Shown here: positions 3 to 12,653 of the stretch, piece by piece
Layout of the letters: each line of letters starts with the position of its first letter
Numbering within the stretch: the first letter of the stretch is position 1
From: Croceivirga sp.
Lineage (GTDB): Bacteria; Bacteroidota; Bacteroidia; Flavobacteriales; Flavobacteriaceae
Direction: 5' to 3'
Assembly (NCBI GenBank): GCA_028284935.1
Contig: JANQQQ010000012.1
Span: 434,001 to 498,000, forward strand
DNA: 64,000 bases
Position numbers and translations under genes: made by a program
Notes under the pieces: model-generated
Told to the model about the DNA's origin: nothing
The model's database searches: none
The model's input: the letters and a program-made list of their open reading frames with translations, nothing else

Positions 3-515
3 TCCGACTTTCTGTCGATAGAGCGATTGGAAACCGGGCAGGTACGATACAACACTACATCATTCCCCTTGAGCAAATTGATCAATGAAGTGGTTTATAG
101 TGCCAATTCGTTGTTGAAGGAAGGTCAACGGATTGTATACCCACAGAATATTGACGATATCATGGTAACCTTTGACGAAAAGATATTGGCCTTATCCTTG
201 ACCAATCTTTTACATAATGCCATCAAGTATTCTTCAGAAAACAGCACCATTGAGGTTGCTGTGGAATTGCAGGGGGATGCTCTTATCATAAATATATTTG
301 ACGAAGGGATTGGAATACCTAAAGATGAACAGCCTTATGTCTTTGATCGTTATTTCAGGGCAAGCAATGTGCTAACGACCCAGGGCACGGGTATTGGACT
401 CAATATTGCAAAACAGCACCTGATTAATTTAAATGCTGAAATATCCTTTGAAAGCAAAGAGGGAAAAGGTAGTACGTTTGCCTTAAAAATTCCCCACAAA
501 ATCCAATCATCATGA
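3..515 (+). CDS. Sensor histidine kinase, C-terminal part (runs off the left edge)
   Basis: C-terminal part of a sensor histidine kinase. The frame is open to the left edge, so the sensor region and most of the dimerisation domain lie outside the window. The visible part begins at the end of HisKA (FLSIERLETGQV) and has a complete HATPase_c domain: N box LTNLLHNAIKYSS, G1 box DEGIGIP, F box FDRYFRAS and G2 box GTGIGLNIAK. Family knowledge: it autophosphorylates a His and hands the phosphate to a response regulator. The next gene starts inside this stop codon (ATGA overlap), so the two are almost certainly partners. The signal sensed cannot be told from here. Confidence 0.93.
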   Translation, partial: SDFLSIERLETGQVRYNTTSFPLSKLINEVVYSANSLLKEGQRIVYPQNIDDIMVTFDEKILALSLTNLLHNAIKYSSENSTIEVAVELQGDALIINIFDEGIGIPKDEQPYVFDRYFRASNVLTTQGTGIGLNIAKQHLINLNAEISFESKEGKGSTFALKIPHKIQSS

Positions 516-1561
516 AAAAAATATTATTGGTTGAAGATGATGCCTCGCTAAGGGAAAACATGGAGGAGCTACTGGATCTTTCCGGTTTTTTGGTGTCTTC
601 CGCTTCCAATGGGCGGAAAGCCATTGAATTGGCAAAAAAAGAAATTCCCGATTTGGTATTATGTGATATTATGATGCCTGAAATGGATGGCTATACCGTG
701 CTGGAAAACCTTTCTTCCCATAAGGAAACCTGCCATATCCCTTTTGTGTTTGTATCCGCCAAAACCGAACATCATGACGTAAGAAAGGGGATGAATCTTG
801 GTGCCGACGATTATTTGACCAAGCCTTTTGAAGAAGAGGAATTATTGGATACCATCAACTCAAGGCTTAACAAGGCAGCTACGTTAAACAAAACCCTGTT
901 GGAATGGCATTCCAACAAAGGAAAAGAAGAAAAAATCCGTACGTTGGAACAGTTGAAAAACTTTTTTGACGATTACGGCAAACCCTATTCCTTCAAGAAA
1001 GAAGAAGGTATTTACAATGAGGGTGATCACTCCAATATGGTCTATCTAATTACCAAGGGGGCCGTTAAATGTTATCGTCTTGATGAACAAGGCAAAGAAC
1101 TGATAACTTCCGTTTATGCCACCGATGAATTTCTAGGTTTTACCTCATTGATGGACCATATACCCCATCAAGAATTTGCAGTGGCCCTGGAGGACACGGA
1201 ACTTGCCGGAATTTCAAAATCGAAGTTGAAGAATATTTTGGAAGAAAACCAACATGTTTCCTTGGAGATATTGGAAGTAATGGCAGAAAGCCTTTCCGAA
1301 ATAAAGGAACAATTACTGCAGATGGCTTATAGTTCCGTGAGAAAACGTACAGCACATACCTTGTTGCAATTTTCACGGGCCATGGGAAACAAAAAGGGAC
1401 AACCTCTAAAAATTGCTAGAAGCGATTTGGCAGGGGCCGCAGGCGTGGCAACTGAAAGCCTTATCAGAACCCTGTCGGACTTTAAAAATGAAGGTCTGAT
1501 TTCCATTGAGAACAGGGATATTCATATTCTTGATTCAGAAACATTACAACAAATTGTTTAA
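512..1561 (+). CDS. Response regulator fused to a CRP/FNR-type transcription factor
   Basis: A 349-aa two-part regulator. Residues 1-120 are a REC receiver domain with acidic pocket E8-D9-D10, phospho-acceptor D52 (LCDIMMPEMDG) and K104 (TKPF). Residues 150-260 are a cNMP-binding-type beta-roll (EGIYNEGDHSNMVYLITKG). The C-terminus is a Crp winged helix whose recognition helix (ATESLIRTLSDF) keeps E315 and R319, the spacing of the FNR/CRP residues that read TGA. There is no FNR-type N-terminal cysteine cluster. I infer that phosphorylation by the upstream kinase, perhaps with a small ligand, controls DNA binding. FNR-like boxes lie right after this gene and before the other Usp genes, so this is the likely local regulator. 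Confidence 0.93.
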   Translation: MKKILLVEDDASLRENMEELLDLSGFLVSSASNGRKAIELAKKEIPDLVLCDIMMPEMDGYTVLENLSSHKETCHIPFVFVSAKTEHHDVRKGMNLGADDYLTKPFEEEELLDTINSRLNKAATLNKTLLEWHSNKGKEEKIRTLEQLKNFFDDYGKPYSFKKEEGIYNEGDHSNMVYLITKGAVKCYRLDEQGKELITSVYATDEFLGFTSLMDHIPHQEFAVALEDTELAGISKSKLKNILEENQHVSLEILEVMAESLSEIKEQLLQMAYSSVRKRTAHTLLQFSRAMGNKKGQPLKIARSDLAGAAGVATESLIRTLSDFKNEGLISIENRDIHILDSETLQQIV

Positions 1562-1563
1562 AA

Positions 1564-1607
1564 TTGATATTTATCATTACAGGAGAAATTGGGACACCAT
1601 AATTTAG
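1564..1607 (+). promoter_or_regulatory. FNR-like box plus -7-like element before the first Usp gene
   Basis: TTGATATTTATCAT at 1564-1577 matches the FNR/DNR-type consensus TTGAT-N4-ATCAA at nine of ten defined bases and begins three bases after the regulator stop codon. TAATTTAG, a near match to the Bacteroidota -7 element TAnnTTTG, begins at 1600, exactly 36 nt after the box starts. If transcription starts about 4-5 nt after that element, the box centre is near -41, the class II activator position. Confidence 0.7.
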
Positions 1608-1627
1608 TGAGGTCATAGCTTTTTTTG

Positions 1628-2470
1628 ATGAAGAATATTTTAGTTCCTACAGACTTTTCGCAGAATTCCGAAAGAGCCTTGGAATATGCCCAATTTTTAT
1701 TTGCCTCTTTTGAGTGCAATTTTTACTTGTTACACGTTGATAGTTTTTTAAACGTTCAGGGCGAATCCTTTATCCCCATAAAAAAATCAAAAAGACCCAA
1801 CTACACCAAACCCACCAAGGAACTTTTACAAGATCTATTGAACCGTACCAAGGAAAATTCGGCTATCAAACAGCATTCGTTTTATGCCATTCATGAGTAC
1901 GGCTTTTTTATTGAATCCGTAAAAAAGCAATTGGAAGATCGAAAAATAGACCTTATTGCTATGGGTACCAAAGGAGTTTCCGGTCTTAGGGAAAAGGTGG
2001 TGGGTAGCTGTGCGGGAGATGTCATTACCAAAGTGCAGCACAATACATTGGTGATACCCAATGAGGTGGTCGTTTCCATGCCCAAGGAAATAGCTTTCCC
2101 TACGGATTTCAATATTTTTTACTCCCATAACATCTTAAATGCAATTACAGAGCTATTGCAACTATGCGAAGCCAAGTTGAGAATCATGCACGTAGCTTCA
2201 AATGGTTTTGGCCTTAGTCCAGAGCAAGAAAGCAATAGAGCTTATTTACAGGATTTTATGGAGGAGCTGCATTCCAAAAATCATAGCTTTCATACGGTGA
2301 CCAACAAAAAGGTTAAATCAGCCATACAATGTTTTGTGGAAAGTAGGGATGCCGATATGATCGTCATGGTCGCCAAGAACCTTAACTTTATTCAGCAGAT
2401 ACTTTTTGATTCCATTATTGAAAAAATAAGTTTCCACACAAAAATCCCTTTCTACGTCATCCATGATTGA
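1628..2470 (+). CDS. Universal stress protein, tandem UspA domains
   Basis: A 280-aa protein with two UspA domains in a row. The first (1-145) begins MKNILVPTDFS and has the complete nucleotide-binding motif G113-x2-G116-x9-G126-S127 (MGTKGVSG...GSC), so it should bind ATP. The second (about 150-280) keeps the fold pattern (IAFPTDF, DMIVMVAK) but has lost the glycine motif. The ATG at 1628 is chosen because it matches the family start; an in-frame TTG just before it gives only one extra residue. It is the first gene after the REC-CRP regulator and has its own FNR-like box. Family role: cytoplasmic stress or energy-status protein; the exact role is unknown. Confidence 0.92.
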   Translation: MKNILVPTDFSQNSERALEYAQFLFASFECNFYLLHVDSFLNVQGESFIPIKKSKRPNYTKPTKELLQDLLNRTKENSAIKQHSFYAIHEYGFFIESVKKQLEDRKIDLIAMGTKGVSGLREKVVGSCAGDVITKVQHNTLVIPNEVVVSMPKEIAFPTDFNIFYSHNILNAITELLQLCEAKLRIMHVASNGFGLSPEQESNRAYLQDFMEELHSKNHSFHTVTNKKVKSAIQCFVESRDADMIVMVAKNLNFIQQILFDSIIEKISFHTKIPFYVIHD

Positions 2471-2494
2471 GGCCTAACCCAGTCTTTATTGCTA

Positions 2495-2538
2495 TTGACC
2501 TAAATCATTTTTTAGGGTAAGCCTGCGCCTTACTTTTG
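2495..2538 (+). promoter_or_regulatory. FNR-like box plus perfect -7 element before the second Usp gene
   Basis: TTGACCTAAATCAT at 2495-2508 is an FNR/DNR-like dyad. TACTTTTG at 2531-2538 matches TAnnTTTG perfectly and begins exactly 36 nt after the start of the box. The ATG follows 13 nt later, leaving a short leader. No TTG -33 element is visible at the usual distance, as expected if an activator replaces it. Confidence 0.72.
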
Positions 2539-2551
2539 AAAAAAGGTCTTT

Positions 2552-3397
2552 ATGCGAACCATTTTAATTCCCACGGATTTCTCGGAAAATGCCTTGCACG
2601 CCCTTACCTATGCCCAAGAAGTGTATAAGTGTGTTCGAACGGAATTTTATCTACTTCACGCCTATGCTGACGAGGTATATGGCTCCTTTCAGAACTCAAC
2701 GGTATCGGAAAGGAAAAAAAAGGAAAAGAAGGTTCGAGCGGAGGTGGAGAAGAAATTAAAAAAACTAGTTGACCAAGTTACAGGCATACCTCCAAATCCA
2801 TTGCACAAATTCCATACTGTTGCCGCTTTTGATAGCCTTGTGGATGCTGTAAATGATTTTGCCAACCAGGAGAACGTTGACCTCGTGGTCATGGGCACCA
2901 AGGGCGAGACCAGCAACAACAAGACTATTTTTGGTAGTTACACCGTACAACTGTTCAAATATGTGACCTGCCCAGTCCTCGCTATCCCAGCGGAAACCCA
3001 ATACAAACAACCAAAAAAAATCGTGTTTCCAACGGATTTTATGGTGCCTTACAAAAGACGTGAATTGAAGCTTCTTGGGGATTTGGCGGGTAGCTTCAAA
3101 TCAGAAATCCATTTTTTATACATCTCTGATTTCAATGTGTTAAGTGACCGTCAAGTTGATAATAGGTTGTTTTTAAACGAATCATTGAAAAAGGCCTATC
3201 TCTTTTTTGAAATGACGGAAACCGCAAACAAAGTAGCGGCGATAATGGAGTACATCATAAAAAATGAAATGAATCTATTGACGATGGTGAACTCAAGACA
3301 TTCCTTGTTTGAAGATATGTTATACCGATCATCCATCGATGAACTGGGGATGAAGGTTAAGATTCCCTTTCTAGTAATGCAAAACCTACCCCGATAA
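2552..3397 (+). CDS. Universal stress protein, tandem UspA domains
   Basis: A 281-aa tandem Usp protein. Domain 1 starts MRTILIPTDFSENALHAL and carries the ATP-type motif G-x2-G-x9-G-S in MGTKGETSN...FGSY. An unusually charged insert follows the first strand (RKKKEKKVRAEVEKKLKK). Domain 2 (from about 150, IVFPTDFMVPYKRR) lacks the glycine motif. It heads an apparent operon with the next two Usp genes: the following ATG is one base after this stop. It is one of five full-length paralogues here that differ widely in sequence, so the duplications look old. Transcription is probably from the box promoter just upstream. Confidence 0.92.
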   Translation: MRTILIPTDFSENALHALTYAQEVYKCVRTEFYLLHAYADEVYGSFQNSTVSERKKKEKKVRAEVEKKLKKLVDQVTGIPPNPLHKFHTVAAFDSLVDAVNDFANQENVDLVVMGTKGETSNNKTIFGSYTVQLFKYVTCPVLAIPAETQYKQPKKIVFPTDFMVPYKRRELKLLGDLAGSFKSEIHFLYISDFNVLSDRQVDNRLFLNESLKKAYLFFEMTETANKVAAIMEYIIKNEMNLLTMVNSRHSLFEDMLYRSSIDELGMKVKIPFLVMQNLPR

Positions 3398-3398
3398 T

Positions 3399-4253
3399 AT
3401 GAATGTTATGAAAAAAATTTTGTTACCTACCGATTTTTCCAAAAGTGCGTGGAACGCCATTACTTATGCACTGCAACTCTTAAAAGATGAGGCGTGTACG
3501 TTTTACTTGTTGAACGCCTACACCCCTGTAGTCTACAGAATGGATTATTTGATTGGCGGTCCGGCGGTCAGCGCCATTCCAGATTATGGAATTGATGTTT
3601 CATTGGCCGGTCTGGAACGCACCGTAGAGCAAATTGAAAAGGAATACCCGAACCCCAAACATCATTTTGAAATGATTTCTGAATTCAGCACCTTAACGGA
3701 TGAGGTTGATAACATATGTGGCAATGTTGGGATTGATTTAATTGTTATGGGCACTACAGGGGCTTCAGGGGCTGAGGAAATCTTCTTGGGGTCAAATACC
3801 GTTCACGTAATTAAAAAGGCCAAAGTACCCGTATTGGCAGTTCCCGAAGATTATACCTATGAGCCCTTAAAGGTGATCATGTTCCCTACCGACTACCAAA
3901 GGCGGTTTAAAATAGATGATGTGGAGCCTTTGTTCCACATCGCTTCAAAGTTCAATGCCACTTTACATGTGGTCCATACCGTAGAAAACGGACTCAGCCC
4001 TAAGCAAATCAAGAATAAAAACTTCCTTAAAGGCATGCTCGAAAACATACCCTGCAAATTTCAAGACGTGACCAATGATGCCATGCCAAGCTTGGTACAT
4101 TCTTATGTTTCAAGACACAGTGTTGATTTGGTGGTAATGATGAATAGAAAACACACTTTTCTACAACGCTTGTTTCTTAAACAAAATGTGGACTCGGTAG
4201 GCTATCATTGTGCCGTTCCCTTCTTGGTCTTGCCGGATATATCGGAAACCTAA
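3399..4253 (+). CDS. Universal stress protein, tandem UspA domains
   Basis: A 284-aa tandem Usp protein. The family-like start MKKILLPTDFSKSAWNAI lies at the second ATG (3408); the first ATG (3399) adds MNV and is equally possible. Domain 1 has the complete G-x2-G-x9-G-S motif (MGTTGASGAEEIFLGSN). Domain 2 (VIMFPTDYQRRF onward) ends with a MMNRKHTFLQRLF segment also seen in neighbouring paralogues but has no glycine motif. It is tightly packed downstream of the previous Usp gene, with no room for a promoter. The conserved MDYLIGGP segment in domain 1 resembles VDYVLGSP in the 5780 paralogue, so those two are the closest pair. Confidence 0.92.
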   Translation: MNVMKKILLPTDFSKSAWNAITYALQLLKDEACTFYLLNAYTPVVYRMDYLIGGPAVSAIPDYGIDVSLAGLERTVEQIEKEYPNPKHHFEMISEFSTLTDEVDNICGNVGIDLIVMGTTGASGAEEIFLGSNTVHVIKKAKVPVLAVPEDYTYEPLKVIMFPTDYQRRFKIDDVEPLFHIASKFNATLHVVHTVENGLSPKQIKNKNFLKGMLENIPCKFQDVTNDAMPSLVHSYVSRHSVDLVVMMNRKHTFLQRLFLKQNVDSVGYHCAVPFLVLPDISET

Positions 4254-5112
4254 ATCCAATGCCATAAAAAATATTCTAGTACCCACTGATTTTTCAAAGA
4301 ATGCTTGGAACGCCCTTTTTATGGCGTTAAAACTATATGCCGACTTTGAATGTACCTTCTTTATAATGAACTGTTATGATTTTGATTTGAAGTATACGGG
4401 TGGGGCGCAAAGCACCATTCGTTCCGGGATGGTCTACAAAGCACTAAAGAACACTTCCAACAGTGGTCTTGATGAGGTTATTCAATACTTAGGGGAAAAT
4501 CACCATAATGCTAAACATCATTTTGGGAAAATAGCGCATTCCGGAGATATTCTATCTGGAATACGAAGCGCCGTTGTAAAACACGACATAGAAACTGTTA
4601 TCATGGGCACGAAAGGCGCTACTGGCGCAAAAAGTGTTTTTTTAGGAAGCAATACGGTCAAAGTCTTGAAGCACGTCAAAAATTGTATTCTCATAACCAT
4701 ACCCAAAAAATTTGATTTCAAGTCCTTATCTTCTATCGTCTTGCCCACGGAATTTGCCCATTTCTTCCCAAAACATACTTTCAATCCCCTATTGGAATTG
4801 ATAGATAAAAACGTAGAACTAAAAATTTTCCATGTTGCCCAAGAATTCCGGTTGAACGAAAAGCAATTGGCCAACAAGGAAATTCTGAAGAAACGATTGG
4901 AAGGTTATGCTTTTTCATTTTACAACGTTATCATTCATCCAAATGTGGCCAAGGCCATTAGGGGATTCTCACGGGACCAGGGTGCGGATCTTATTGTTCT
5001 CACCAATTACTCACATTCGTTTTTGGAAAAATTGACTCAAGAGCCCATTGTAAAAAAGATGGTGTTTAAAAGCAGCATTCCCTTAATGATACTACCGGAT
5101 TTTGAAGGATGA
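4210..5112 (+). CDS. Universal stress protein, tandem UspA domains; start codon unclear
   Basis: A tandem Usp protein of about 283 residues in its core. Domain 1 (IKNILVPTDFSKNAWNAL) has the full G-x2-G-x9-G-S motif (MGTKGATGAKSVFLGSN). Domain 2 begins SSIVLPTEF and is degenerate. The start is odd: the only standard in-frame start upstream is GTG at 4210, inside the previous gene by 44 bases, which would add 18 residues unlike any Usp protein. The ATG expected at the family position (4259) is out of frame by one base and meets TAA at once. Either a rare start codon (ATA 4264, ATT 4273), a true GTG start or a one-base indel explains this. The body of the frame is intact. Confidence 0.8.
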   Translation: MPFPSWSCRIYRKPKSNAIKNILVPTDFSKNAWNALFMALKLYADFECTFFIMNCYDFDLKYTGGAQSTIRSGMVYKALKNTSNSGLDEVIQYLGENHHNAKHHFGKIAHSGDILSGIRSAVVKHDIETVIMGTKGATGAKSVFLGSNTVKVLKHVKNCILITIPKKFDFKSLSSIVLPTEFAHFFPKHTFNPLLELIDKNVELKIFHVAQEFRLNEKQLANKEILKKRLEGYAFSFYNVIIHPNVAKAIRGFSRDQGADLIVLTNYSHSFLEKLTQEPIVKKMVFKSSIPLMILPDFEG

Positions 5113-5126
5113 TATAATGGAGGTTT

Positions 5127-5278
5127 ATGAATAGGGTTTTACTGCGAACGGATTTTTGGAAAACGTATGGAATGTCATTCTATATGCCCTCAAGATTTTT
5201 AGGAACAATCCATGTGACTTTTTAATCTTTAATGCCTACCATAAAAAATCACTTTTAATTGTCAGATACCGTTTTTGA
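5127..5278 (+). pseudogene. Remnant of a further Usp gene (N-terminal, frameshifted)
   Basis: Starts 15 bases after the previous Usp stop. ATG at 5127 gives MNRVLLRTDF, the Usp start, then the frame must shift by one base around 5155. The new frame reads LENVWNVILYALKIF, then NNPCDFLIFNAYHKK, which lines up with SKSAWNAITYALQLL and EACTFYLLNAY of the paralogues, and stops at 5276-5278. No later Usp sequence is visible. This is a decayed copy, not a functional gene. Confidence 0.8.
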
Positions 5279-5309
5279 TATCCCATTCATTGGAATAATT
5301 TGAAACAGT

Positions 5310-5663
5310 TCATTTTATTTCACCCCTGTTTTGGGTAATTGAGCTCACAGTGAATTTCAGTTCATGGATATCACGAGAAATGGATGCCAGCTCAAATTTA
5401 AGGTTGGCGTCACTCTTTTCTTCAGATTTTTCGCTGGACCGGTCCCGGAGAACATTCAATCGCCGTTCCAACAGATTTTGCGTATTCAACACATCTTTAA
5501 TGGCATCCAAATATATCAGGGGAGTCGTTGATTCCACATGTTGATGTATGCGTTCTTTTATGTCCAGTAAAGATTCTTGAAAAGTTTGTATGGTTTTAAA
5601 GCATGATTCTTTTGGCACTGTTGAGTATTTAGAAGTAGTAGTGTAATTGAGTTCGTTTTTCAT
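5310..5663 (-). CDS. Hypothetical helical protein, 117 aa
   Basis: Family not recognised. The start is set at ATG 5663 (MKNELNY); an in-frame start 21 bases further out is less likely, because a -7-like TACTTTGC on this strand (5688-5681) puts transcription start near 5677. The protein has no signal peptide or membrane segment and is mostly predicted helix, with charged heptad-like stretches (LLDIKERIHQHV, NLLERRLNVLRD, ISRDIHELKFTV), so a coiled coil is likely. It is transcribed away from the 5780 Usp gene and shares its FNR-like box, which suggests it belongs to the same response. Confidence 0.7.
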   Translation of the reverse strand: MKNELNYTTTSKYSTVPKESCFKTIQTFQESLLDIKERIHQHVESTTPLIYLDAIKDVLNTQNLLERRLNVLRDRSSEKSEEKSDANLKFELASISRDIHELKFTVSSITQNRGEIK

Positions 5664-5680
5664 TTTTCTCGGTTTTACGG

Positions 5681-5754
5681 GCAAAGTAGAACAATGTCAT
5701 AGTTATCCAAATGACCCAAATCATGGCATAAGCGTTACCGTCGCACTACCTTCA
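5681..5754. promoter_or_regulatory. Divergent promoter region with one shared FNR-like box
   Basis: ATGACCCAAATCAT at 5711-5724 is an FNR-like dyad with one half-site change. On the plus strand TACCTTCA (5747-5754) begins exactly 36 nt from the box start, facing the 5780 Usp gene. On the minus strand TACTTTGC (5688 down to 5681) begins exactly 36 nt from the other end of the box, facing the 5663 gene. Both -7 elements are imperfect. The symmetry suggests that one bound regulator drives both genes. Confidence 0.62.
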
Positions 5755-5779
5755 TTGGTCAATTTAAACCGTTCAGGTC

Positions 5780-6673
5780 ATGAAAAGAGTACTATTGCCC
5801 ACCGATTTTTCAGAAAACTCGTTCAACGCTGCATGCTATGCATTGGAGTTGTTCCAAAATGAAACCTGTGTTTTCTATCTAATGAATACATACACTCCTC
5901 CCATTTATAGAGTCGATTATGTATTGGGTAGCCCTGGACAGTTGGGATTGCCCGATGACTTTCAATACTTTGCTATGAACAACCTTAAATGGTTTGAGTC
6001 GGAATTAAAAAAAAGGGTGAACAATCCAAGACATTCTTTGGTATTGCATTGCGCCTTCAACACCCTTGAAGATGAAATCAAAAAAGTAGTAAAAAATGAG
6101 CATATTGATTTGATCATTATGGGCACGCAAGGTGCCACCGGTGCTAAGGAACTTTTTTTTGGGTCGAACACGCTTCGCGCCATAAAAACAGCACAAGCCC
6201 CTATTTTGGTACTGCCGCCAAAGTATACGTTCAAAACCCCAAAAAACCTATTATTTCCAACCGATTTGGAAATCGACTTTCTCAAGACACCATTAGAACT
6301 TATAGTCGGGCTTTCAGAGCTATGGAAACCAACAATTCACGTGCTACATATTACAGCACCACATGGCCTAAACAATGAACAACAGAAAAACAAAAAGACG
6401 TTGAAAAAACGTATCTCAGAGACTAAAATGGTATACCATGATTACCCTGATCAAGAGCTGGTCAACGCCATCAATGGTTTTTGCCATGAACAACCCATTG
6501 AGTTACTTATTATGGTCCAGAACAAACATACGTTCTTGGAACGTTTATTTGTGGAGCCCATTATTAAGAACATTGGTCTTCAAAGCCTCATTCCCTTTTT
6601 GGTCTTGCCCTATTACGAACGGTACAAGATTACTCCCTTAAAAAGTCAAATTGACTTAAATCATAGCAGATAA
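5780..6673 (+). CDS. Universal stress protein, tandem UspA domains
   Basis: A 297-aa tandem Usp protein beginning MKRVLLPTDFSENSFNAA. Domain 1 contains G-x2-G-x9-G-S (MGTQGATGAKELFFGSN), so ATP binding is expected. Domain 2 (LLFPTDLEIDFL onward) lacks it but keeps the family tail (NKHTFLERLF). An extra tail of about 15 residues (after FLVLPYYERYK) extends beyond the usual C-terminus. The gene stands alone on the plus strand with its own box promoter. The last 23 bases of its coding sequence overlap the FNR-like box of the next gene. Confidence 0.92.
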   Translation: MKRVLLPTDFSENSFNAACYALELFQNETCVFYLMNTYTPPIYRVDYVLGSPGQLGLPDDFQYFAMNNLKWFESELKKRVNNPRHSLVLHCAFNTLEDEIKKVVKNEHIDLIIMGTQGATGAKELFFGSNTLRAIKTAQAPILVLPPKYTFKTPKNLLFPTDLEIDFLKTPLELIVGLSELWKPTIHVLHITAPHGLNNEQQKNKKTLKKRISETKMVYHDYPDQELVNAINGFCHEQPIELLIMVQNKHTFLERLFVEPIIKNIGLQSLIPFLVLPYYERYKITPLKSQIDLNHSR

Positions 6674-6694
6674 ATCTGCCTTATTCTAGTTTTA
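6651..6694 (+). promoter_or_regulatory. FNR-like box plus -7-like element before the truncated Usp gene
   Basis: TTGACTTAAATCAT at 6651-6664 differs from the 2495 box by one base. It is followed exactly 36 nt later (6687) by TAGTTTTA, a one-mismatch -7 element. The box lies partly inside the 3' end of the upstream Usp gene. The intact promoter before a shortened gene suggests that the gene, though truncated, is still transcribed. Confidence 0.68.
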
Positions 6695-6710: not shown

Positions 6711-6992
6711 ATGAAAAAAAGAGTGTTATTGCCTACGGATTACCCTAAAAATGCATTGAACACCATACGTTATGCCAAGAAGCTATTTGAGGATATTGCA
6801 TGTGAATTTTATTTATTAAATGCCTGTAATGCATCTGGGTATGATTCGGAAAGTATGATGGTCCCGGAGCCCAGGGAGCATTTTTATAAGACTACAAAAA
6901 GGCATTCTGAAGATGGTATTCTAGGTTTAAAGCTCCTTAAAAGGGAAGAAGAAGAAAAGGAAAAGCGTAAAAAAGTGATTGAAGTTGTTTGA
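6711..6992 (+). CDS. Truncated universal stress protein (N-terminal half-domain only)
   Basis: A 93-aa product. Residues 1-45 (MKKRVLLPTDYPKNALNTI, then CEFYLLNACN) are clearly the start of a Usp domain. From about residue 60 the similarity fades, and the protein ends in a highly charged helix (KREEEEKEKRKK) with no ATP motif and no second domain, against about 280 residues in the paralogues. It has an FNR-like promoter and its own terminator, so it may be expressed as a mini-protein. Alternatively it is a decaying gene. No in-frame continuation of the Usp fold is seen downstream. Confidence 0.75.
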   Translation: MKKRVLLPTDYPKNALNTIRYAKKLFEDIACEFYLLNACNASGYDSESMMVPEPREHFYKTTKRHSEDGILGLKLLKREEEEKEKRKKVIEVV

Positions 6993-8398: not shown

Positions 8399-10225
8399 CT
8401 AGTCAGTATGCTCAAATTCCCTATCGGTCAATGATTTCATAAAAGCAATGATTGCTTTGGATTCATGGTCGGACAGATTTAGGGAATCTGGTGGTAAGGT
8501 TTGATAGGGCACGTCAAGACCCATTCCCTGACCCCCTCCAACGTTGTAAAACTGAACCACTTCATCCAAAGTTGTATAAACACCATTATGCATATAGGGT
8601 GCGGTTAAATTGGCATTCCTTACCGTAGAGGTTTTGAAGAAGTGCTTCTTCTCATCCACTTTGTAAGGAAAATATTGTCCTAAATCATCATCAAGAATGG
8701 GATGTTCAAAATTCGCATTTTTGGGCACTCCCAAGTTTTCAAACTCCGTTTCAATATAACGCGGGGGAACCGTTCCATTAAACGTTGGAGGAAAATGACA
8801 GGTCGCGCAGGCGGCCTTGCCCATGAACAAATTGAAACCCAGTACTTCTTGCTCGGTCAAGGAATCTTCCTTGCCCTGCATGTTTCTATCGAATTTAGAA
8901 TCAAAAGGCGCAAGACTTCTAATATAAGTCGCTATTGCATTTCTGACGTTTCGGTTGGTTACTCCATCGGTATATAAAGAGTCGAACTGTACATGATAAT
9001 TGGTATTGGCCTTTACCCGTTCTTCCATGGTGTTTAAGTCGAGATGGAATTCATTTTCATTATTGGCCACACTTACAATTTGCGTTTCCAGATCATCTCC
9101 CCTTCCGTCGTAGAAAAAGGTGGTTTGATACACCGAATAGGACAAGGTAGGGGAGTTTCGCTGTAAGGGTTGGCCATTATTGCCAATCGCTTTAGCGTTC
9201 CCATCAGTAAAAGCCTTTTCCCTAATATGGCAAGTAGCACAATTCATGACACCATCCTCTGATAGCGAAGGATCATTAAAAAGTGTGCGCCCAAGCGCCA
9301 CCCGTGATAGGCTCATAGGAGGAGAACCTGGTAATGAAAAACGCTTGAGGTTAAAAAAATCCTTCGCAAATAAATTCTCTGCCAATGGGTTCAAAGGTCT
9401 TGAGGTATTCAGTTCAATATGCCAGTCCTGAGCGGTTCTATTGACCAGTTTTAATTGTTTATTGGTATGGTCCTTTATGAAGTGGTATCGGCTGAACGTA
9501 TCAAAGTCACCAGCGTCCAGGGCTTCGATGGATGATTGAATTTCTTTCATCCAATCATTAAATAGGGTTGGGTCCTGAAAAGCCATTTCGTAAGCGTACA
9601 ACACCGATTTTAAGGATCGGTAATTTTCAATGGCCTCCTGTAACGAGTTTGATAGCATTGGGGAATCAAAGCCCGTTATGCCTTTTGTGGCAATATTGAC
9701 AATAGCGTCGCGAATCATTTTTAAATGATGTCTATCGGATTGTCGTATGATAATATGGTTCTTTCTAATGTAGGGAATGCGTGCCTTTAAGTACATAATT
9801 ACGTTGTTTAGATCAATATTAGATATGGCGTCCCCACCAAAGAGCATTTCCTCAAGCACCTGGTAACTTTTGGGCTTACGTAGTTTGACATCGGTATAAT
9901 CATCAATCTCCACCTTTATAAGATTGGGGGCATTCATGGAAAGATAGTTTTCATAGTCGTAGGCCATTAACAAAGGTTCGGCACGCTTGTACCACTTTCT
10001 GCTTTTTCGAAAGAGGTCCTGATTGATTGTAAGGGAATTTGCGGTATCCATTTGTTGGATAAAAAAAGAAGCGCTGTCCAAGGTTTTGAAATATTGCTCA
10101 CGAATGGCTTCATTAAAGGCAGAAGGTTCTTTTTCCGTTAGAACAATTCTTTTTTTCTCTTCTTGACACGAACCCAGTAGAATAAGGCCAAGGAGTACTT
10201 GCAGCAACCATAATTTATTTTTCAT
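8399..10225 (-). CDS. Di-heme cytochrome c peroxidase family lipoprotein
   Basis: A 608-aa protein with a lipoprotein signal (lipobox LLGSC, C20). Residues 35-260 are a helical domain resembling the imelysin-like N-terminal extension found on many Bacteroidota peroxidases. The catalytic part follows, with two c-type heme motifs, CATCH at 329-333 and CATCH at 473-477, as in bacterial CcpA/MauG enzymes. Family role: periplasmic reduction of H2O2 with electrons from cytochromes, or oxidation of another substrate. It lies 71 bases downstream of the PhoX-like gene on the same strand, with a hairpin in between, so cotranscription is possible. Confidence 0.92.
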   Translation of the reverse strand: MKNKLWLLQVLLGLILLGSCQEEKKRIVLTEKEPSAFNEAIREQYFKTLDSASFFIQQMDTANSLTINQDLFRKSRKWYKRAEPLLMAYDYENYLSMNAPNLIKVEIDDYTDVKLRKPKSYQVLEEMLFGGDAISNIDLNNVIMYLKARIPYIRKNHIIIRQSDRHHLKMIRDAIVNIATKGITGFDSPMLSNSLQEAIENYRSLKSVLYAYEMAFQDPTLFNDWMKEIQSSIEALDAGDFDTFSRYHFIKDHTNKQLKLVNRTAQDWHIELNTSRPLNPLAENLFAKDFFNLKRFSLPGSPPMSLSRVALGRTLFNDPSLSEDGVMNCATCHIREKAFTDGNAKAIGNNGQPLQRNSPTLSYSVYQTTFFYDGRGDDLETQIVSVANNENEFHLDLNTMEERVKANTNYHVQFDSLYTDGVTNRNVRNAIATYIRSLAPFDSKFDRNMQGKEDSLTEQEVLGFNLFMGKAACATCHFPPTFNGTVPPRYIETEFENLGVPKNANFEHPILDDDLGQYFPYKVDEKKHFFKTSTVRNANLTAPYMHNGVYTTLDEVVQFYNVGGGQGMGLDVPYQTLPPDSLNLSDHESKAIIAFMKSLTDREFEHTD

Positions 10226-12089: not shown

Positions 12090-12653
12090 CTATTTTGGCA
12101 ATCGATTTTTAATGGTGGCTATTTGGCCCATATGGTTGGCGGAGTGTTCCATTACATGATACCAGACGTACTGGTAGTTGATGCCTTCTTCTAGATTTGA
12201 TTCAAACCAAATATCATCTTTAGTTTTTAGCCCTGAAAGGGACTTTTGACGCACGTCATCCCATAAATCCAAATAATATTGGATTGGTTTTCCTTTGAGA
12301 ATATTCTTGGTTTTTTCGTTCAATTCCCCAGCTATTCCCAAGCGATCGCGTTCTTCCCCTGTCCATGAGCGCCCCTCAAGGGTGGCGATTTGATAATATA
12401 CCTCTGTTGAGACCAAATGCATGATGAGGGACCCTATGCTATTGGCGTCATCATCGTATAGAAAATCGGTTTCCGATTGATCAAGATCTTTGACTTGATC
12501 CGTAATTCGGGATTTTAGGTCTTCCAGCATATAAACCATTAAGCCAATTTGTGGGGAGTACCCTTCAACGGCTTTCATTTCACCTTGTGCATATGCTGGT
12601 GAAAGCATAAGAAATAACGAAAATAAACAAAGACTTTTCTTTAAAGTTGTCAT
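12090..12653 (-). CDS. Secreted DinB-like protein
   Basis: A 187-aa protein starting MTTLKKSLCLFSLFLMLSPAYAQ, a clear Sec signal peptide; I therefore prefer ATG 12653 over the in-frame ATG 93 bases upstream. The mature part has the DinB four-helix pattern with metal-ligand-like histidines in SLIMHLVSTEVYY and in HVMEHSANHMGQI. DinB-fold enzymes include thiol-dependent transferases and hydrolases, mostly cytoplasmic; exported versions are common in Bacteroidota but uncharacterised. Neighbouring genes are on the same strand but not close enough to call an operon. Confidence 0.85.
   Translation of the reverse strand: MTTLKKSLCLFSLFLMLSPAYAQGEMKAVEGYSPQIGLMVYMLEDLKSRITDQVKDLDQSETDFLYDDDANSIGSLIMHLVSTEVYYQIATLEGRSWTGEERDRLGIAGELNEKTKNILKGKPIQYYLDLWDDVRQKSLSGLKTKDDIWFESNLEEGINYQYVWYHVMEHSANHMGQIATIKNRLPK

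Follow-up and report, generated by a model that had tools for sequence, protein, structure and literature searches.

A candidate low-oxygen regulon of Flavobacteriaceae with exactly spaced class II boxes, a FixL-like kinase and two CRP/FNR-family regulators

The closest described counterparts of the locus presented here are the FixL-FixJ-FixK system of Alphaproteobacteria, composed of a haem-PAS kinase, a receiver and a CRP/FNR protein without Fe-S cysteines, and the class II promoters of FNR and Anr. The recognition helix of FNR is ETISR, and the distal arginine of FixL is R220 in B. japonicum. The genes cco, hemN and nos are among the targets of FnrN/FixK (PMC4999443). The locus belongs to Croceivirga sp. 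(assembly GCA_028284935.1, contig JANQQQ010000012.1) and lies in a stretch of 64,000 nt, hereafter the window, to which all window positions refer. It comprises a 5.1-kb cluster of Usp-family genes, preceded by genes for a histidine kinase and for REC-CRP, a protein joining a receiver domain to a CRP-like output; four 14-bp boxes with candidate -7 elements at a constant distance are placed along the cluster.

The locus resembles FixL-FixJ-FixK in its haem-PAS kinase, receiver and CRP/FNR protein without Fe-S cysteines, and in the cco, hemN and nos type of its predicted targets. It differs in that receiver and CRP output form one polypeptide, leaving no separate step of fixK transcription; in that the REC-CRP output consists of cNMP_binding and HTH_Crp_2 domains in place of the LuxR/NarL-type helix-turn-helix (HTH) of FixJ; and in having its own site, ATGAY-N4-RTCAT, a Bacteroidota -7 element and the Usp cluster as a local target. 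With FNR/Anr class II promoters it shares a palindromic 14-bp box at -41.5, genes of low-oxygen type and a CRP/FNR-family HTH, while the half-site (ATGAY versus TTGAT), the -7 element (TAnnTTTG versus TATAAT) and the recognition helix (ATESxIR versus ETISR) are different.

The computation yields the sites with their exact spacing and conservation, the gene neighbourhood, a match to haem PAS domains with an invariant histidine, and the near-identical recognition helices of two regulators. From these we infer binding, phosphorylation, the direction of control and oxygen as the signal, and consider it probable that a fused FixJ/FixK-like activator, phosphorylated by a FixL-like kinase, shares its class II boxes with FNR. 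A CRP/FNR-family dimer would occupy a site centred at -41.5, of sequence ATGAY-N4-RTCAT or, as also found here, TTGAY-N4-ATCAT, stand in for a strong -33 element and recruit the polymerase with the Bacteroidota sigma-A to a TAnnTTTR -7 element. The sites would be shared by the adjacent REC-CRP and by an FNR-like protein with conserved cysteines. REC-CRP is seen as joining a FixJ-like receiver to a CRP output of FixK type, with the FixL-like haem-PAS kinase of the gene immediately upstream as its activator. In low oxygen both regulators would be turned on, and through them the Usp proteins, a ribosome-hibernation factor, cbb3 oxidase, HemN, N2O reductase and others. The system would work like FixLJ-FixK plus FNR, the function of each step being a prediction.

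Boxes and -7 elements

Box 1, TTGATATTTATCAT (1564-1577, plus strand), lies ahead of usp1, and the -7 element TAATTTAG (1600-1607, plus strand) starts 36 nt after the start of the box, a distance denoted below as +36. Box 2, TTGACCTAAATCAT (2495-2508, plus strand), ahead of usp2, is followed at +36 by TACTTTTG (2531-2538, plus strand). Box 3, ATGACCCAAATCAT (5711-5724), carries no strand and is common to divergent candidate promoters: the -7-like TACCTTCA (5747-5754) is at +36 on the plus strand, and TACTTTGC (5681-5688), also 36 nt away, faces a 117-aa open reading frame (ORF) on the minus strand. Box 4, TTGACTTAAATCAT (6651-6664, plus strand), lies wholly inside usp5, close to its 3' end, with TAGTTTTA (6687-6694, plus strand) at +36. 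An earlier note on this DNA had listed the four boxes and the minus-strand element facing the gene at 5663, and all of them are present. It had also placed a TAnnTTTG-like element 36 nt from each box; the spacing is exact in all four cases, but the full TAnnTTTG occurs only at 2531, the elements at 1600, 5747 and 6687 having one, two and one mismatches, respectively. In TACTTTGC the gap between TA and TTG is one base shorter than in TAnnTTTG. It matches TAnnTTGY, which in Flavobacterium psychrophilum is motif SM5, attributed to an alternative sigma factor (PMC9723704); transcription from box 3 in the minus direction may therefore depend on a different sigma factor. Elsewhere in the window, boxes at 12246, 22074 and 53888 lack a TAnnTT at +36, whichever strand is read.

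In the whole 4.23-Mb genome the pattern WTGAYNNNNRTCAT-N22-TAnnTT has 16 matches, compared with 2 for the reversed pattern, and 5 of the 16 fall within these 5.1 kb, where 0.0024 would be expected at the control rate. Pairs occurring genome-wide at a random rate, the outcome that the earlier note had named as fatal to its proposal, are at odds with this excess. Nine of the 11 genomes of the same genus likewise hold 6 to 32 sites, against 0 to 2 in the control. The box alone is less telling: the 22 window matches of TTGAY-N4-ATCAT with at most one mismatch compare with an expectation of 15.5, and 22 or more arise in 5 of 100 shuffles. This weak excess, together with the imperfect -7 elements of three of the four boxes, is what can be said for chance matches in AT-rich intergenic DNA with a coincidental spacing chosen by eye. 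Such an origin appears extremely improbable in view of the genome-wide 16 versus 2, the conservation of the -7 columns outside the selection (see below), and the +36 peak obtained in the loci of other genomes when the spacing was left free.

The last was seen in 80 related loci, that is, the DNA around REC-CRP relatives. After removal of duplicates, TAnnTTTG was at +36 in 58 of 67 cases for ATGAY-N4-RTCAT and in 18 of 18 for TTGAY-N4-RTCAT. Before that removal, the loci hold 152 TTGAYnnnnRTCA boxes; 19 exact TAnnTTTG elements are found at +36, and no other offset has more than 2. In 12 genomes, picked for their high +36 counts, 84 of 117 pairs are at +36, 12 at +37 and 4 at +35. The +37 shoulder is thus the commonest spacing after +36 in this set. 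Chance spacing was rejected on the genome-wide excess and on the +36 peak in both the 12 genomes and the 80 loci. A relaxed scan gave 181 sites, 3 of them in the window and 178 in the loci.

The consensus, derived from 308 distinct sites selected for a box with TAnnTT at +36, is ATGAY-N4-RTCAT, its first base being A in 72% and T in 27%. In the -7 columns outside the selection T is found in 73% of the sites, followed by A in 42% and G in 44% (A or G in 86%). The earlier note had called the boxes FNR-like; they are not canonical FNR sites, as TTGAT half-sites are not found on both arms. A canonical FNR palindrome as the site was rejected on this consensus and on the count of TTGATN4ATCAA, of which the 80 loci contain 11 copies, none with an exact TAnnTTTG at +36. 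In F. psychrophilum TAnnTTTG occupies -12 to -5 (PMC9723704), and hence the centre of the box falls at -41.5, the class II position, in the register of this other species; the placement near -41 suggested earlier is thus borne out by the +36 spacing combined with the published register. No strong -33 element was found among the 308 sites.

Candidate readers and the kinase

The genome contains five HTH_Crp_2 matches, four of them over the cut-off. REC-CRP (512-1561, plus strand; 349 aa) is composed of a receiver, a CRP-like cNMP-binding fold and HTH_Crp_2, with Asp52 and Lys104 in the receiver and the recognition helix ATESLIR. Asp52, Lys104, Asp9 and Asp10 are each at least 97% conserved among 81 sequences, so that the phospho-acceptor residues of a receiver are in place, and the helix (I/V)ATESLIR is found in 77 of the 81. 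The FNR-like protein is encoded at C16:188610-189299. It has cysteines 6, 9, 55 and 108, present in 21 of 21 sequences, and a helix, TATES(A/C)IR in 18 of the 21, that is nearly the same as that of REC-CRP. Its best NCBIfam match is Fnr PRK11161 (residues 5-227, E 8e-33), at 113.7 bits against a cut-off of 228. The cysteines may be ligands of a 4Fe-4S cluster, in an arrangement unlike that of E. coli FNR. The earlier proposal of a reader from the CRP/FNR family is supported, but the adjacent REC-CRP is not the sole candidate, the second being this FNR-like protein encoded elsewhere. Ten of 20 fnr-like genes have a box of their own 47-64 nt before the first Met, and an eleventh has one at 143 nt (loci L225, L228, L229, L231-L237 and L242). 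Beside fnr-like in three of the 12 genomes picked for high +36 counts (G066, G114 and G144), TAnnTTTG lies just 22-24 nt past the box, a placement that would suit autorepression.

A histidine kinase gene is located directly upstream of the REC-CRP gene in all 80 loci. In Croceivirga sp. this gene (G000:C35:433004-434515, plus strand; 503 aa) lies mostly outside the window, its 3' part occupying positions 1-515 and overlapping the REC-CRP gene by 4 bases. The product has, according to Pfam, two PAS domains followed by HisKA-HATPase, and this kinase with its haem-type PAS was missed in the earlier interpretation. The best PDB sequence matches of PAS1 are the oxygen sensors FixL and DosP (E 7e-13 to 5e-9), in a group that also contains the sensor kinase 10jx; the first match outside the group is at 1.8e-3. 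A single-PAS kinase from Aquimarina gave a similar group with FixL first. His65, aligned with the haem ligand of FixL, is present in 81 of 81 kinases. The loss of PAS1 from some kinases, suggested by local alignments, was rejected, PAS1 being found in all 81; the 26 shorter kinases keep it as judged by eye. With a haem-type PAS in a HisKA-HATPase kinase and the proximal histidine, the kinase has these features of FixL and is predicted to bind haem.

Haem PAS domains can also bind NO, and the predicted targets across the genomes include the nosZ operon and NorC-like, NirK-like and Ric/ScdA proteins, as would fit an activator responding not to oxygen but to another signal, e.g., NO, nitrate or carbon supply. 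A meta-regulon study (PMC8510549) groups a CRP/FNR homolog of Flavobacteriales, which may differ from the proteins discussed here, with MalR and carbon sensing, and this points the same way. Against another signal stands the first PAS domain, whose nearest matches are the oxygen sensors FixL and DosP. Were the sites bound by a repressor, their geometry would be unexpected: a centre at -41.5 without a strong -33 element is typical of CRP/FNR class II activators. A repressor or a signal other than oxygen is thus considered quite unlikely.

The distribution of sites and regulators was surveyed in 146 genomes of the order, 28 of them from the family of Croceivirga sp.; the counts below are sites versus control matches, and a full-length REC-CRP was called at 40% identity or more. 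In the family, 12 genomes with both REC-CRP and the FNR-like protein, including six whose REC-CRP is just 40-42% identical, hold 183 versus 20; 12 genomes with the FNR-like protein and no full-length REC-CRP hold 85 versus 5; and four with REC-CRP and no close FNR-like protein hold 27 versus 1. REC-CRP as the sole reader was rejected, since the genomes devoid of its full-length form keep their +36 sites. The same 85 sites, as well as the four invariant cysteines and the fact that hemN, nosZ and cbb3 are classic FNR targets, favour the FNR-like protein reading all the boxes alone, with REC-CRP beside the usp cluster controlling something else. Several findings contradict this. G076 and G133, in which REC-CRP is present and no further FNR-like relative was found at E 1e-10, retain 15 sites versus 0, and the recognition helix of REC-CRP is almost identical to that of its rival. 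The six genomes with a REC-CRP of the window lineage (at least 49% identity) plus the FNR-like protein (122 versus 12) have more sites per genome than those with the FNR-like protein only (Mann-Whitney U test, P 8e-4, relatedness ignored). The boxes near REC-CRP also differ in their core from the others. Mainly because of the two clean genomes, the FNR-like protein as sole reader is held to be the less likely case, and we regard it as unlikely.

The difference in the core was found on comparing boxes at most 40 kb from REC-CRP, in which TGACC is frequent, with those elsewhere, which are more often all A/T. C at position 6 is present in 23 of 40 versus 9 of 47 (Fisher P 3e-4); for cores of A and T alone the figures are 6 of 40 versus 24 of 47 (Fisher P 6e-4). 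These P values ignore relatedness. The comparison covered 4 of the 11 genomes of the genus (G150 and G152, closely resembling G149, G154, and the genomes in which REC-CRP had not been located were left out) and 15 of the 16 sites of Croceivirga sp., the minus-strand reading of box 3 being dropped; one palindrome of G149 was counted on both strands. The two box flavours are compatible with two readers of differing preference, without being proof of them. In G149 a second cluster of six +36 sites (G149:C11:94310-122088) lies away from the REC-CRP cluster; the core contains G or C in five of them, and the other is of the A/T and C type.

Several observations weigh against the sharing of the sites by REC-CRP and the FNR-like protein under a FixL-like kinase. 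Two of the 11 genomes of the genus show little or no excess of sites (G147, 2 versus 3; G155, 4 versus 2), and 11 of the 12 genomes with the FNR-like protein only belong to one genus. Among the four genomes with REC-CRP and no close FNR-like protein, G057 has a paralog with the helix GTTEEQVIR, a possible box reader, and an unplaced second relative, at E 1e-10 or better, exists in G034, so that the clean cases are reduced to G076 and G133, both of one genus. Six genomes with a REC-CRP of a second lineage (61 versus 8) show no clear excess over those with the FNR-like protein only (P 0.09). A further CRP/FNR paralog, encoded at C16:189371-190051, may be another reader. In the kinase, the position of the FixL distal arginine, Arg220, is taken by Leu85, and Arg is found there in 43 of the 81 kinases. 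Finally, family f6 (26 genomes) has few sites, 34 versus 9, despite an FNR-like match in 18 of the 26; its members may use another spacing or box. An FNR-like protein of this family, that of L242, has the helix TATESVIR. In the other families, f4 (26 genomes; full-length REC-CRP in 4, an FNR-like match in 26) holds 128 versus 20 and f15 (27 genomes) 15 versus 7.

The second REC-CRP lineage is represented by L246, L247, L248 and L249, 39-43% identical and each adjoining a kinase gene. The helices read in these four are GMASETVSR (L246) and GTSPETVSR (L248), both FNR-like, with ETVSR of the FNR type, as well as GTATETAIR (L247) and GTAKESLVR (L249). The kinase of L246 carries a FixL-type SRHDGY...GREV segment.

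Predicted targets and genes of the window

Five of the 16 sites of Croceivirga sp. precede Usp genes. Single sites are found before a CRP/FNR gene divergent from ccoI and cbb3 genes (by eye), before a cytochrome c gene ahead of nosZ, before a gene for a HemN-like radical SAM protein followed by a usp, and before a TonB and an OmpW gene. Two precede genes of S30AE-type ribosome-hibernation proteins, one of which is slightly under the Pfam cut-off (22.2 versus 23.7 bits). Four of the 16 targets, namely L125, L130, the 135-aa ORF of L134 and the 117-aa ORF of the window, have no Pfam match.

Targets were read in 70 loci, 8 of which have no downstream ORF by the rule used, and L161 was not recognized. 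For the genomes with REC-CRP and those with the FNR-like protein only, Pfam was run in each case on 10 of 27 targets, picked by the author. In two of the latter genomes the targets include COX1 of the cbb3 oxidase, two HemN-like radical SAM proteins, Ric/ScdA, cytochromes c, one of them NorC-like, a NirK-like multicopper protein, a DsbD-type protein, Usp and a sulphate permease. In the four genomes with REC-CRP they include FixS/CcoS, COX1 (G057), Ric/ScdA, two Usp proteins, PEPCK, MlaE and two cytochromes c that resemble, by eye, the nos-linked one of Croceivirga sp. Some of the sites, being inside long frames, may be chance matches. With cbb3 oxidase, HemN-like proteins and the nosZ operon recurring across genomes, the low-oxygen character ascribed to the target set at the outset is upheld, and in F. 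psychrophilum oxygen limitation raises the expression of cbb3 oxidase and haem-synthesis genes (PMC9723704).

The genes following the boxes were assumed to be Usp genes, and this is confirmed by Pfam, with the last slightly under the cut-off. On the plus strand usp1 (1628-2470) is followed by usp2 (2552-3397) and usp3 (3399-4253), the latter starting 1 nt past the end of usp2, so that the two are probably on one transcript. The start of usp4 (4264-5112, plus strand) is uncertain, with ATA at 4264-4266 where related Usp genes carry ATG; translation may begin at an upstream GTG overlapping usp3. The 117-aa ORF (5310-5663, minus strand), without a Pfam or NCBIfam match, is divergent from usp5 (5780-6673, plus strand) over box 3, and usp6 (6711-6992, plus strand) is a short Usp-like frame of 93 aa with 23.0 bits against the Pfam cut-off of 24. 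Frame remnants similar to the start of a Usp gene are found at 5127-5300, a decayed usp copy as judged by eye, and a further Usp match, at C35:432132-432500, contains an internal TAA. Further along, at 8399-10225 (minus strand), a protein with CxxCH motifs is encoded, resembling, by eye, di-haem cytochrome c peroxidase.

Low-oxygen regulation in Flavobacteriaceae

Tentatively, the arrangement can be viewed as a collapse of FixL-FixJ-FixK to two proteins in Flavobacteriaceae, with the haem-PAS kinase acting directly on the CRP/FNR activator, in which REC-CRP and an Fe-S FNR would provide two oxygen inputs to one rigid set of class II boxes, and the core of the box would tune which input dominates. 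In the open-licence PMC literature no paper was found with a title or opening of the abstract describing the site, the regulon or the FixL/REC-CRP pair in Bacteroidota, which is weak evidence of novelty. For Flavobacteriaceae, a major marine group, few publications dealing with low-oxygen regulation were found. A conserved, exactly spaced site together with named candidate readers makes a regulon comprising cbb3 oxidase, N2O reductase, haem synthesis, ribosome hibernation and Usp proteins predictable from sequence. It also offers a testable case of a CRP/FNR protein controlled by phosphorylation, and of two oxygen sensors acting on one class of promoters.

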